Of a stretch of DNA of 64,000 nt, positions 5,972 through 30,137 are shown in pieces. Positions within the stretch are counted from its first letter, which is position 1; each line of letters starts with the position of its first letter. The position numbers and the translations under genes were made by a program. The stretch covers positions 1 through 64,000 of the forward strand of contig JAJRZA010000066.1 of assembly GCA_024275485.1 (NCBI GenBank), given 5' to 3'. The notes under the pieces were generated by a model. The model was not told where the DNA came from. It saw nothing but the letters and a program-made list of their open reading frames with translations, and ran no database searches. Source of the stretch: Candidatus Krumholzibacteriota bacterium (lineage in GTDB: Bacteria > Krumholzibacteriota > Krumholzibacteriia > LZORAL124-64-63).

Positions 5972-7288
5972 CTAGTTGGACCAGTCGGGTGTGGTGTCCG
6001 GGTCGGGCCCGAACGTCAGTTGCCGAAAAGTATTCTCGACAACATCGAAAACGAAAAGCTTGAAGACCCCGGAACGATCCGAGGTGAAGACAATGTGCCG
6101 GCCATCGGGCGCCCAGCTGGGATCTTCGCAATTTCCCCAGCCGGCACCGGTCAGAACCCTGCGGTTCTCACCGGTGATGCTCATCAAAACGATTTGCGTG
6201 GTGTTGCCCTCCCGGGTGGCATAAACAATGTTTTGGCCGTCGGGAGACCAGTCCGCCGAATCGTTGTAGCGCCCCTCGTAAGTGCGACGCCTGCGTCCAG
6301 TACCTTCATCATCAATGATATATAACTGAGGAGTGCCTGTTCTGTCACTGGTAAAAATCAATTCTCGGCCATTGGGAGCCCAACTGGGGCTGATTTCAAT
6401 GCTTTTTGCCACTGTCAACCGTTTGATGATGCGGCCCTCAGGCGAAATCCGGTATATTTCCGGATTTCCTCCCCTGGACAGGGCCAAAAGTAACTCATGA
6501 CCATCAGGATGCCAGTCCGCACCGTAATTCAGGCCATCCAGCTCGATAATCGGCCGAACACTGCCGGTATGGGTGTTGAGGCTGAACAACCCCTGGGTAC
6601 CTTCCCGGTAGCTTGTGAAAGCAATTTCAGAGCGGTCCGGAGACCAGCTCGGACACAGATTGAGTGTGCGGTTGGCCGTGAGCTTCAACTCACCCGCCCC
6701 ATCGTAATCCACGGCATACAGATCAGTTCGAGCGTTGCTACCCCGGCAGAAGGCAATGCGCGTCATGGTGATGGGCGGAGACATGGAAATATACCCGATA
6801 ACCTGGGCGGAAAAGTGATGCGCGGTGGTGCGCAACTGGGTCGGCAAGGGGCGGTATCGCTTGCTGAAAAGAAGCTGCCGCGAAGGATAGAGCATAAAAT
6901 TGAGATTGATGGTGGTGGGGACATCTTCCCCCGTGAGTTCCGCATCGCGCAAAGGGCCTTCCACAGTGCCTTCGATGGTGAACTGAAAATCGAGACTGTC
7001 ACTTTGATCTTCGCTCAGGGCGGTGCGTATCAAGCCACTGAAAATCAGATCGTTGTTGATGACCGACTCAACAAGTTCGGCAGTCTTCACGGAAGCTGTT
7101 CCCCCGGAAAGCACATTCAGCATATTGACGAGGATGTCCGTTTTCTCATAAGCCGTTTTGGTTATATCGACGCCCACTTCAATTTGGCCATTGGCAGCCA
7201 AGGCTTGATCGACCATGGGCACCATCATGCAAAATGTCAGGCACAACGCCAGGCCGATCTTGACGAGTCCGGTAGGAAAAAATCTCAT
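5972..7288 (-). CDS. tolB: Tol-Pal translocation protein TolB
   Basis: This 438-residue periplasmic protein has an N-terminal signal peptide (about residues 1-32), an N-terminal alpha/beta domain and a six-bladed beta propeller. The propeller repeats are seen as recurrent PSWSPDRSEIAFTS, DWHPDGHELL, PSWAPNGRELIFTSDR and DWSPDGQNIVY strands ending in a closing strand. It exchanges between Pal and the Tol inner-membrane complex during cell constriction. Its ATG overlaps the upstream TonB-like gene stop as ATGA, so the two are translationally coupled. Confidence 0.96.
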   Translation of the reverse strand: MRFFPTGLVKIGLALCLTFCMMVPMVDQALAANGQIEVGVDITKTAYEKTDILVNMLNVLSGGTASVKTAELVESVINNDLIFSGLIRTALSEDQSDSLDFQFTIEGTVEGPLRDAELTGEDVPTTINLNFMLYPSRQLLFSKRYRPLPTQLRTTAHHFSAQVIGYISMSPPITMTRIAFCRGSNARTDLYAVDYDGAGELKLTANRTLNLCPSWSPDRSEIAFTSYREGTQGLFSLNTHTGSVRPIIELDGLNYGADWHPDGHELLLALSRGGNPEIYRISPEGRIIKRLTVAKSIEISPSWAPNGRELIFTSDRTGTPQLYIIDDEGTGRRRRTYEGRYNDSADWSPDGQNIVYATREGNTTQIVLMSITGENRRVLTGAGWGNCEDPSWAPDGRHIVFTSDRSGVFKLFVFDVVENTFRQLTFGPDPDTTPDWSN

Positions 7289-25845: not shown

Positions 25846-28311
25846 TCATGTCCCTGGATTCAGGGACTTGATTTCTTCCTTGGGAATGGACAAAAAGGTC
25901 AGCTCGCCCCCTTTGACACCGACAAGCAGGCTGCTTTTACTTTTGATCTTTCCACGCAGCAACTGCTCGCTGAGAGGATCCTCCACATACTTCTGGATGG
26001 CACGACGCAATGGCCGCGCTCCCATCAGCGGATCAAAACCAACATCGCAGAGCATATCCTTGCAGTCCTGGGTGAATTCAAATTCGATCTCCAGGTTGCG
26101 AAGACGGTGACTGACATCTGCCAAGAGGATATCAACGATCTGGTCGATTTCCTCCCTGCCCAGAGAATTGAAGGTGATGATTTCATCGATCCGGTTCAGG
26201 AATTCGGGGCTGAACGTCTTGCGCAAATCGGCATCGATGTTGCCCTGGATGCGCTGATTCTTGTGCCCGTTCTCATCACTGCCGAAACCGACACCGCGCA
26301 CGCCGTGGGTTTTGCGGGACCCGACGTTGCTGGTCATGATCAACACCGCATTGCGAAAATCCACCGTGCGGCCGAAGCTGTCCGTCAGCACGCCATCGTC
26401 CAGAACCTGCAGCAGGATGTTGTACACGTCCGGGTGGGCCTTTTCGATTTCATCCAGCAAGATGACGCAGTAGGGTTTCCGGCGAACCTTTTCGGTAAGC
26501 ATCCCGCCCTCGTCGTACCCCACATAGCCGGGAGGCGCTCCCACCAAACGGCTCACCGAGTGTTTCTCCATATACTCGGACATATCCACGCGAAGCAGGG
26601 CAGACTGATCACCAAAAAGAAATTCGGTAAGGCGGCGAGCAACTTCTGTTTTCCCCACGCCACTGGGACCAAGGAAAATGAACGATCCAATGGGGCGTTT
26701 GGGGTCGCGCAAACCGGCTCGGTTGCGGCGAATGGCTTTGGAGACGGCTTCGAGGGCCGGCCCCTGACCAATGACCCACTTGCCCAACTCCTCCTCCATA
26801 CGAAGTAATTTTTCGGTTTCCTCTTCTTGAACTTCGGAAACCGGAATACCCGTAATTTCGGCGATCACGGTGCAGATAAGGCTTTCGGTCACGGTGGTGG
26901 TGGGATCGCTTTGTTCTGAATTCCAGTTCTTCTTGAGATCCTGGAGTTTCTTCTTGAGACCTTTTTCTTCATCCCTGAAAGAGGCCGCTTTCTCAAACTC
27001 CTGGGCCTGGATGCTGCTCTCTTTTTCGGTGACCACTTCGGCAATGCGCATCTCCAGTTCCCGCAGGTCCGGCGGCACAATGGTCATGGAGAGTCGGGCG
27101 CGACTGCCTGCCTCATCCATGATGTCGATGGCCTTGTCAGGCAGACTGCGCGAGGAAATGTAACGATTGCTCAGAAAGACGGCAGCCCGAATGGCGTCGT
27201 CGTCGAATTTCACACGGTGGTGGGCTTCGTATTTGTCTCGCAAACCAAAGAGGATCTCAACACTGTCCTCTTCGCTGGGGGCATTCACCGTCACCACCTG
27301 GAACCGGCGTTCGAGGGCGCCGTCTTTTTCAATAAATTTCCGGTACTCATCCATGGTGGTGGCGCCAATACATTGGATTTCACCCCGACTGAGGGCGGGC
27401 TTCAGCATGTTGGAAGCATCGATGGCACCTTCGGCACCGCCGGCACCCACAATGGTGTGCAGCTCATCAATGAAAAGTATGATTTCTGGATTCTCCCTTA
27501 TTTCGGCCATGATCTGTTTGAGGCGTTCCTCAAACTGGCCGCGGTATTTGGTACCCGCCACAACACTGGCAAGATCGAGAGTCACGATTTCCTTGTCACG
27601 CAACAGGGCAGGAACGTTGCCCTCGACGATCTTGGTGGCAAAACCCTCGACGATGGCGGTTTTTCCCACACCAGGTTCTCCAATGAGCACAGGATTGTTC
27701 TTTTTGCGACGACTGAGGATTTGAATGCAGCGATCGATTTCCATGGTCCGGCCAATAGTGGGATCCAGTTTACCCTCTCGCGCCATATCGGTCATGTTCC
27801 GACCAAACTGCTCAAGCACGCTGTTTTCTTTCTTCTCTTTTCGCTTGCGACGCTTTTGCATCTTCGGCGCATCATCGCCACCAAGGCTTTTCATGACCTC
27901 GCGTTTGACTTGTTCATGGTCGGCCCCCATCTCACCGAGGACCCTGGCAGCGACGCCTTCACCTTCACGGATCAGGGCCAAGAGCAGATGCTCGGTGCCC
28001 ACGTAGTTGTGGTTGTGAAGCCGGGCTTCGTCAATGCTCAATTCAAGAACTTTTTTGGCACGGGGAGTGAAGGGGATTTCCCCAATGCTGACAGGACCAT
28101 TGGGAGCTGTAACACTGCTCTCCACAGCCTTTTGAATCCTGTCAAAGTCAATGTTCAGATGACGCAAAACATTGGCTGCCACGCCATCGCCCTCGCGGAC
28201 GATGCCCAGCAACAGATGCTCGGTACCGATATAATCATGTTGAAGACGACCCGCTTCGTCCCGGGCCAGAAACAGTACTTTTCGCACGCGCTGTGTGAAT
28301 CGGTCATTCAT
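25846..28311 (-). CDS. clpC: ATP-dependent Clp protease ATP-binding subunit ClpC
   Basis: This 821-residue class I Hsp100 unfoldase feeds substrates to ClpP. Two N-terminal Clp repeats (about residues 5-145; [10 protein letters not shown] and [10 protein letters not shown]) are followed by the first AAA+ module (Walker A GEPGVGKT, Walker B ILFIDELH). A middle domain carries a UVR-type segment ([17 protein letters not shown]), and the second AAA+ module has Walker A GPSGVGKT. The middle UVR segment separates ClpC from ClpA and ClpB. The ATG at 28311 has GGAGG 9 nt upstream. It lies downstream of mcsA and mcsB, the usual partner genes, after a 237-bp spacer. Confidence 0.95.
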
Positions 28312-28386: not shown

Positions 28387-28548
28387 CCTTCGAATCCCCG
28401 TCAATGAAAATATACTTTAGCCAAGGCACGGACGCCACACCCACGGGTCCACCTCGCGAAGGGCTCCGTTGATTTCTATGTTTCGCGCATTTTCAAGGGT
28501 ACTTGATGGCAATATCCACCCTAAATCAGCAAGTGTTGGGCCAGAGAG

Positions 28549-29607
28549 CTAAAATTCGGAAAAAATGTCCCTAAGGAGATTGGCACGAGCTTCGATTCTT
28601 TCGACATTGGCCAACCGGCGACCGGCCTGGGCTTCAAGATGAGCTGCTTGGTACTGGATCATGGCACGATTCAAGATGGCAAAATCAATACCCGGCAACA
28701 TGCCCAGACCGATGCCCAGACGAAGGTGATTGAAGCGATCGGCACCCTCCTGTGACGTCATCAGGCGCGCGTGCTGCAAAACAGCAAGACTGCGCCGGGC
28801 AATATCTTCCAGTCCCAGGGAATCATTGGCAAAAAGTTGCTGACGCGCCGTGCGCTCATGAAGTAGCACTTTTCCCAGGTGGAAATCAAAATTACTGGCA
28901 ATTTCGGCCTCATCCCGCCCCATGGTCACCAAATTGTAAATCAGGAAAATGGCCCCCCGCACTGCCGCCCCACTGCCGAAAAGTCCCCGAACACCAAAGC
29001 GCAATTGCCGCAAGGCGTTAAGAATCTTGTCAATTTCGCCGCCAATCACCAGGCCCGGCAAGTGAACCATCACCGAAAGACGCAATCCGGTGCCGGCGTT
29101 GCTGGGGCTGGCCGTCAAATAGCCGAAATCATCCTGGAAAGCAAAATCCTGGGAAATCTCGAGCTTTTCTTCAACCTGCAGAAGGTCTGACAACACCTCC
29201 TGTGGTTGGAATCCCGACTTGCAAACATGAAGCCGCAAGTGATCTTCGCCATTTATCACGGCGTTGGCATAGCCCGAGGAGGAAACCACCAGATGCCGAT
29301 GATCAGCCTCGGCCGAGGATCTCGTCCCCGTCAAGTGCTTCTCGCGCAGCAGGGCCTGTTCTCCAGGTTCCAAGGCGGCCAGTTCCAGGGACCACCCCGG
29401 CTCCAGGATTGAAGAGGCATTGATAGCGGCCAACAATTCTTCACTCACGGTTTTCCGCACGGAGACCGTAGCCTGATGAGGAAATTCATAGGCTGATAGA
29501 TTGCGCGCCAGGCGTCCGCGAGTGCTGATCACCATATCGGCAGCCGGACCGGTGGCATCCAGCCAGGACAGGGTATCGGAAAATGGCTGACTGAAAAAAG
29601 AGTTCAC
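28549..29607 (-). CDS. mcsB: McsB-like protein arginine kinase homologue with altered active site
   Basis: This 352-residue member of the ATP:guanido phosphotransferase family lies between mcsA and clpC as McsB does in Firmicutes. McsB phosphorylates protein arginines and marks them for ClpC. Family landmarks are kept: VISTRGRLARN near residue 26, REKHL, EDHLRLH, GTGLRLSVMVHLP and RLGIGLGM. However, the usual CPTN active-site motif reads SPSN, so the reactive Cys is Ser. The GEG(S/T)EA motif reads GSGAAV, losing both glutamates, and NEED reads NGED. The catalytic role is therefore doubtful; binding of phosphoarginine or regulation of ClpC may remain. GTG start overlaps the mcsA stop (GTGA). 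Confidence 0.85.
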   Translation of the reverse strand: MNSFFSQPFSDTLSWLDATGPAADMVISTRGRLARNLSAYEFPHQATVSVRKTVSEELLAAINASSILEPGWSLELAALEPGEQALLREKHLTGTRSSAEADHRHLVVSSSGYANAVINGEDHLRLHVCKSGFQPQEVLSDLLQVEEKLEISQDFAFQDDFGYLTASPSNAGTGLRLSVMVHLPGLVIGGEIDKILNALRQLRFGVRGLFGSGAAVRGAIFLIYNLVTMGRDEAEIASNFDFHLGKVLLHERTARQQLFANDSLGLEDIARRSLAVLQHARLMTSQEGADRFNHLRLGIGLGMLPGIDFAILNRAMIQYQAAHLEAQAGRRLANVERIEARANLLRDIFSEF

Positions 29608-30137
29608 GATGCTCCTGTCCTTCCCAACTTCAGATTCCGGAGCAAATCCCGTTGGCGGGCGGCTTCTTCAAAATCTTCCCGGGCCACGGCCTTTTCCAGA
29701 ACAATGCGAACCTTCTTGATGGCTGCCAGCTGGTCTCCATCTGGGGAACGGTGCAGGGGTGATTTTCCCAGATGCAAAGCATGACCATGAAAACGGGCCA
29801 AATGAGGCATGAGAGCTGAGCTGAATGCCCGGTAGCACCGGGGACACCCCAGCAGGTTGGTCTCGCGCCAGCGATTCAGGGCGTAGTCGCAGGAGGGGCA
29901 AGCCGTTACCGGAAATACAGAAGTTGATTCATCGGGTTGCTGAAAATCGTCCCCCAGGAAGGAAGCCAGGCTTTCGGAATCCGTCTGGCTGGATAAATCG
30001 GCAGGAAACGAATCCGGACCATGGGTTTGCCGCCTCAGGGAACAGCGGGAACAAATCCAGAGGTTGCGAACTTCTCCATCGACAATTTCGGAAAGGTGAA
30101 CAAAAGCTTCACTGGAGCCGCAATCCTGGCATTTCAT
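29604..30137 (-). CDS. mcsA: UVR-domain zinc protein McsA
   Basis: This 177-residue protein has two zinc-finger-like CXXC pairs: CQDC...CSRC (about residues 3-32) and CPSC...CPRC (about 79-101). A C-terminal UVR motif (REDFEEAARQRDLLRNLK) follows. McsA activates the McsB kinase and helps target substrates to ClpC; it also responds to metals and oxidation in Bacillus. GGGAGG lies 4 nt before the ATG. It directly precedes mcsB with a 4-nt overlap. Confidence 0.88.
   Translation of the reverse strand: MKCQDCGSSEAFVHLSEIVDGEVRNLWICSRCSLRRQTHGPDSFPADLSSQTDSESLASFLGDDFQQPDESTSVFPVTACPSCDYALNRWRETNLLGCPRCYRAFSSALMPHLARFHGHALHLGKSPLHRSPDGDQLAAIKKVRIVLEKAVAREDFEEAARQRDLLRNLKLGRTGAS

Follow-up and report, generated by a model that had tools for sequence, protein, structure and literature searches.

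The locus described here raises the question whether a gene that descends from mcsB and lies between mcsA and clpC still encodes a protein arginine kinase and, if not, what the protein is kept for. The gene was found in a stretch of 64,000 nucleotides (the window) of a bacterium of the class Candidatus Krumholzibacteriia.

In arginine kinase, Cys271, Glu225 and Glu314 bind and polarise the guanidinium group, and R229, R309 and N274 are also named among the contacts (PMC11075012). In Bacillus subtilis the mcsB C167S allele is the standard kinase-inactive allele, and the half-life of MgsR was 12.3 min in this mutant compared to 17.7 min in the mcsB deletion mutant, a difference that the authors attribute to an adaptor function independent of the kinase; what remained of the effect involved MgsR and perhaps ClpX rather than ClpC (PMC7235348).

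The window gene and its active site

The reading frame is uninterrupted, and its GTG start shares four base pairs (GTGA) with the stop codon of mcsA and is preceded by an AGGAG Shine–Dalgarno-like stretch (Table 1). The protein matches PF00217 (5e-41), the NCBIfam protein arginine kinase models (1e-80) and solved McsB structures (8e-57); its 271 bits lie below the curated NCBIfam cut-off of 385 bits for protein arginine kinase. Both the ATP:guanido phosphotransferase domain and the McsB dimerisation domain are present, and by these domains and the operon with mcsA and clpC the protein is McsB by descent. It belongs to a known family and is no new kind of system. As it is the sole PF00217 gene of the host genome, a draft assembly of 106 contigs, there is no active copy which could compensate.

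Table 1. Features of the window and of related loci discussed in the text (residue numbers as in Geobacillus McsB)
Feature	Position	Strand	Remark
mcsB-like gene	28549..29607	(-)	352 aa, GTG start; predicted pseudokinase
mcsA, McsB partner/activator	29604..30137	(-)	four CxxC pairs and UVR motif intact; 4-bp overlap with mcsB
clpC, Hsp100 unfoldase	25846..28311	(-)	likely ATG start 28309-28311
Promoter-like element GTGGCG-N17-GTATATT	28409..28438	(-)	upstream of clpC, conserved in the window family
R-G-R, two N-terminal ATP-binding arginines (R28, R30)	29512..29520	(-)	kept
Gly at Glu120 (NEED to NGED)	29248..29250	(-)	GGC, codon check
Glu121 (arginine kinase E225 position)	29245..29247	(-)	kept, GAA, codon check
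Arg125, ATP-phosphate arginine	29233..29235	(-)	kept
Ser at catalytic Cys167	29107..29109	(-)	AGC, codon check
Arg176, ATP-phosphate arginine	29080..29082	(-)	kept
Arg207, ATP-phosphate arginine	28987..28989	(-)	kept
Ser at catalytic Glu212 (arginine kinase E314 position)	28972..28974	(-)	AGT, codon check
Leu at conserved Gln222	28942..28944	(-)	CTG, codon check
Tyr at conserved Ser224	28936..28938	(-)	TAC, codon check
mcsA and mcsB cleanly absent between lolD and clpC	L172 (G009), L173 (G033), L174 (G027)
mcsA and mcsB cleanly absent between lolD and clpC	L175 (G018), L177 (G025), L178 (G020)

The residue numbers of the window protein coincide with those of Geobacillus McsB from residue 119 onward, and residue roles were taken from the literature (PMC7235348, PMC11075012, PMC12467219) and the alignment. 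A preliminary description of this DNA had noticed a serine codon in place of the catalytic cysteine, and the codon check bears this out. It had also read NGED for NEED and GSGAAV for GEG(S/T)EA as losses of active-site glutamates. The first Glu of each motif (E120 and the catalytic E212) is indeed lost, but the second Glu of NEED, E121, the base of this motif, is kept, and the second Glu of the other motif (E215) is not a fixed residue: Ala214 and Ala215 are confirmed by the codons, and we rejected E215 as a catalytic position, as otherwise intact McsBs carry E, D, A, Q, G, K or R there. Of the catalytic residues Cys167, Glu121 and Glu212 only Glu121 is thus left. None of the five ATP-phosphate arginines (Geobacillus R28, R30, R125, R176, R207) is lost, a point which, like the retention of Glu121, the preliminary description did not contain. 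In 97 reference McsBs C167, E120, E212 and the five arginines are conserved to 100% (rounded) and E121 to 99%, so that the losses at C167, E120 and E212 are not due to chance. Leu222 and Tyr224 would, judged from the alignment with arginine kinase, fall in the region of the nucleotide pocket. The window McsB very likely has no kinase activity.

A role as phosphoarginine reader, as had also been proposed, finds no support, because the allosteric phosphoarginine motif R337-D338 reads R-I in the window protein and no member of the window family has kept the Asp. This Asp also varies in intact McsBs, including those of other phyla, and we therefore rejected its loss as a diagnostic feature.

Active-site loss within the class

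Our survey covered 80 genomes of the class, 69 of which contain PF00217. In families f2, f3 and f5–f8 the nine positions R28, R30, E120, E121, R125, C167, R176, R207 and E212 are kept with nearly no exception. The same nine are kept almost without exception in 63 relatives from many other phyla; the named outgroups were retrieved with patterns including TR.RLARN, and conservation of R28 and R30 there is partly selected, that of C167, E121 and E212 not. Within the window family (f1), an intact catalytic Cys is confined to genera g13 and g4 and to a single member of g7, which has lost the N-terminal ATP arginines. Active-site loss is a property of the whole window family and not of one copy, and the look at related genomes that the preliminary description had recommended finds the same changes family-wide. 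Congeners of the host, one of them bacterium DOLZORAL124_64_63, carry E121Q and lose ATP arginines too (R28W, R125Q, R176K/H, R207C/K).

The serine codon at position 167 is AGY in g1, g2, g8, g9 and g10 and TCG in g11, and members of g7 have C, H, R or Y. The two codon classes and the variety in g7 suggest repeated losses of the cysteine once constraint was relaxed; one Cys-to-Ser change in a common ancestor is not a secure assumption. In a species tree computed from clpC, lolE, lysS, prfB and lolD by a quick search under a simple model, the intact genera g13 and g4 branch before a 24-genome clade which carries the Cys losses or the mcsAB deletion, and a further branch comprises g3 and the other genera without mcsAB. 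The McsB of family f4 is eroded as well (L044, L046, L047, L024), with mcsA-mcsB-clpC kept, and has decayed in parallel and independently of f1.

Some loci stand apart. The f4 locus L024 retains the catalytic Cys. In g3 (L048, G007) Glu is found at the Cys position of the most eroded McsB of f1. The McsB frame of L041 (G006, 133–300) differs from that of the family in its C-terminal part and L049 (G022) has a run of N inside mcsB; each is either an assembly error or a real break.

Constraint and predicted fold

We examined 23 eroded f1 proteins at the 51 positions that show a conservation of 97% or more among 97 intact McsBs. Twenty positions are released (S26, R28, R30, A32, E120, E121, R125, C167, T169, N170, R176, S178, R207, G211, E212, G213, Q222, S224, L277, A342), nearly all of them in the active site, and the 31 others are kept. 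All nine literature-defined ligand contacts (ATP-phosphate, guanidinium, Asn, Cys) are among the released positions, with a chance of ∼5e-5 (hypergeometric); besides the equivalents of R229 and R309, the nine include the other ATP-contact arginines of the family. In the control groups all nine contacts are kept, and one (f3 and f7), seven (f5 with the intact f1 members) and one (40 outgroups) of the positions are released, whereas f4 alone releases all nine contacts.

Pairwise dN/dS of eroded pairs is about 0.04–0.19, like that of intact pairs, the values being approximate as dS is near saturation in several. The mean pairwise identity of the McsBs of the eroded clade is 0.52, and frames are open in nearly all members. 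The predicted structure of the window McsB (pLDDT 95) superimposes over its full length with B. subtilis and Geobacillus McsB at a TM of 0.92, and the alignment, as earlier recommended, places Ser167, Ser212 and Gly120 at C167, E212 and E120. The McsA-docking loop (A156, F157, G162, L164, T165) is kept to 100% in the eroded set. The site-focused release, the low dN/dS and the fold match together argue that specifically the active site was released and the protein as a whole maintained: catalytic residues are gone, and fold and frame are under purifying selection, as is characteristic of a pseudokinase.

Two further measures were discarded. Faster overall evolution of McsB is no usable sign of decay, as the ratio of McsB to ClpC distances overlaps (eroded 3.4–5.7, intact 2.5–5.3), and family-specific newly conserved residues, considered as an adaptor surface, are mostly common to the intact sister genera.

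Neighbouring genes and the region upstream of clpC

Across f1 the genes follow one another as polA-coaE-prfB-lysS-lolE-lolD-mcsA-mcsB-clpC-bamA. The remark of the preliminary description that the fold landmarks and the mcsA-mcsB-clpC context remain holds on both counts. In genera g5, g6, g12 and g14 clpC is kept and directly follows lolD, and neither mcsA nor mcsB was found anywhere in these genomes; as the pair is deleted in four related genera, its job must be dispensable there. Wherever mcsB persists in f1, mcsA persists, and no f1 genome with mcsA but without mcsB was seen. The CxxC pairs and the UVR motif of McsA are kept in the eroded lineages except g3, where the McsA beside the most eroded McsB (L048, about 6125–6433) has no N-terminal zinc finger. 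ClpP is present in the host genome. The GTEH residues in the N-terminal part of ClpC were uninformative as a marker of phosphoarginine use, as they are unchanged even in genomes without mcsAB.

At 46–132 nt upstream of the clpC ATG, GTATATT is found in 30 of the 36 f1 genomes, in many of them with GTRGCG 17 nt before it. The element is also present in f1 genera that lost mcsAB and in the intact genus g4. The intact genus g13 lacks it, as do all 38 genomes outside f1; in families other than f1 the mcsB-clpC gap is short. Within the window family clpC has gained this element, and we infer that it provides clpC with its own promoter.

A probable partner of ClpC

We suggest that the window gene encodes a pseudokinase kept as a McsA-bound partner or adaptor of ClpCP and regard this reading as fairly probable. 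Given the intact frame, the selection and the adjoining partner genes despite the lost catalytic residues, the McsB of f1 probably serves the ClpC protease as a partner without enzymatic activity. Phosphotransfer would have been lost through replacement of Cys167, Glu212 and Glu120 and the changes at positions 222 and 224, with the fold, the dimerisation domain, the McsA-docking loop and the gene order all retained. McsA-bound McsB would then most likely be a stoichiometric partner that holds substrates or regulates ClpC without arginine phosphorylation, in a mode which can be likened to the kinase-dead but still partly functional C167S McsB of B. subtilis. With a promoter of its own, clpC would no longer depend on the mcsAB operon, and this independence may have allowed decay and deletions of mcsAB.

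The preliminary description had called the protein a possible pseudokinase, which the lineage-wide release of the active site and the published kinase-dead phenotype of C167S support well (PMC7235348). Its proposal of a ClpC adaptor is made plausible by the context, the fold, the kept McsA, the co-loss of mcsA and mcsB and the residual function of C167S; the role itself is deduced from these, and a retained adaptor or scaffold role of McsB toward ClpC is rather likely. The broader proposition, for which we see the balance as even, would be that one bacterial lineage gave up marking proteins for degradation by arginine phosphorylation. McsA-McsB would have stayed on to regulate ClpCP, or to serve it as adaptor, by protein binding only; such a natural pseudokinase with the guanidino-kinase fold would have evolved at least twice in one class, in f1 together with a separate clpC promoter.

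The main rival to this pseudokinase partner is a relic drifting to deletion: the kinase was abandoned, the protein is now without important function and mcsAB is on its way out of the genome. The clean deletions in g5, g6, g12 and g14 and the highly eroded McsB with truncated McsA in g3 fit such a course, as does the own promoter-like element of clpC, by which the operon may have become unneeded for clpC expression. We nevertheless consider it unlikely, because dN/dS is low (0.04–0.19), frames are open in nearly all of a clade whose McsBs differ at about half of their residues, losses are concentrated in the active site with the structural invariants kept, and mcsA stays wherever mcsB stays.

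Creatine kinase, like the window McsB, is without a Glu equivalent to E314, and is active. Together with the five ATP arginines and E121 of the window copy and a YwlE-like phosphatase with a CTGNTCRS loop in the host genome, this might point to a weak or altered kinase that binds ATP and slowly phosphorylates arginine or another guanidino or protein substrate through Ser167. Such activity seems quite improbable, given that C167S is kinase-inactive in B. subtilis (PMC7235348), that no replacement chemistry is conserved among five relatives of the same genus (E121Q, R207C/K, R176K/H, R28W), that S224 and Q222 have become Tyr and Leu, and that the phosphatase is present also in genomes without McsB. 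The chance that the McsB is in truth intact and its erosion an artefact of sequencing or assembly is negligible. The genome is a draft (106 contigs) and two relatives have local breaks (G006 C-terminus, G022 gap), but independent assemblies of some twenty other species share the Cys loss, with two Ser codon classes and low dN/dS, and refute such an error.

Comparison with known systems

With McsB of B. subtilis, Geobacillus and S. aureus (PDB 6fh1, 6tv6, 8gqd, 8wtb) the window protein shares the full-length two-domain fold (TM 0.92), the McsA-docking loop, the mcsA-mcsB-clpC order and about 33% identity. It differs from them in lacking Cys167, Glu212 and Glu120 and in having Ile for Asp338 of the phosphoarginine site, and no CtsR was detected in the host genome. 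The laboratory C167S protein of B. subtilis has the identical Cys-to-Ser change and lost the kinase activity but kept some kinase-independent function (PMC7235348). Unlike this mutation, the change in the window is natural, is fixed across much of f1 and comes with further active-site losses, and the window clpC carries its own promoter-like element. Like arginine and creatine kinases the window protein has the phosphotransferase domain and the five ATP arginines; unlike these phosphagen kinases it has neither the catalytic Cys nor the small N-terminal domain and carries the McsB dimerisation domain. The bacterial pseudokinases covered by one review likewise have a kinase fold without catalytic residues, but these are Ser/Thr protein-kinase folds, and the review mentions McsB in its list of references alone (PMC12599244). 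Searches of open-access literature, also for inactive McsB homologues and for a Krumholzibacteriota arginine kinase, brought up no description of a natural McsB pseudokinase.

In the cited papers a kinase-independent job of McsB has rested on a laboratory mutant; in f1 the same kinase-dead change is fixed naturally across much of the family in a protein under selection. Eroded, intact and mcsAB-deleted genera occur side by side and offer a comparison by which the kinase and the adaptor role of McsA-McsB in ClpCP proteolysis could be separated. A protein annotated as 'protein arginine kinase' need not phosphorylate arginine.

The YwlE-like phosphatase that persists in the host genome, considered as a marker, belongs to a CTGN(T/I/S)CRS type found in many members, genomes without mcsAB included; the variable loop residue is the YwlE-type Thr in the window genome (L230, G000), Ile in g9 (L231) and Ser in g11 (L232, L233).
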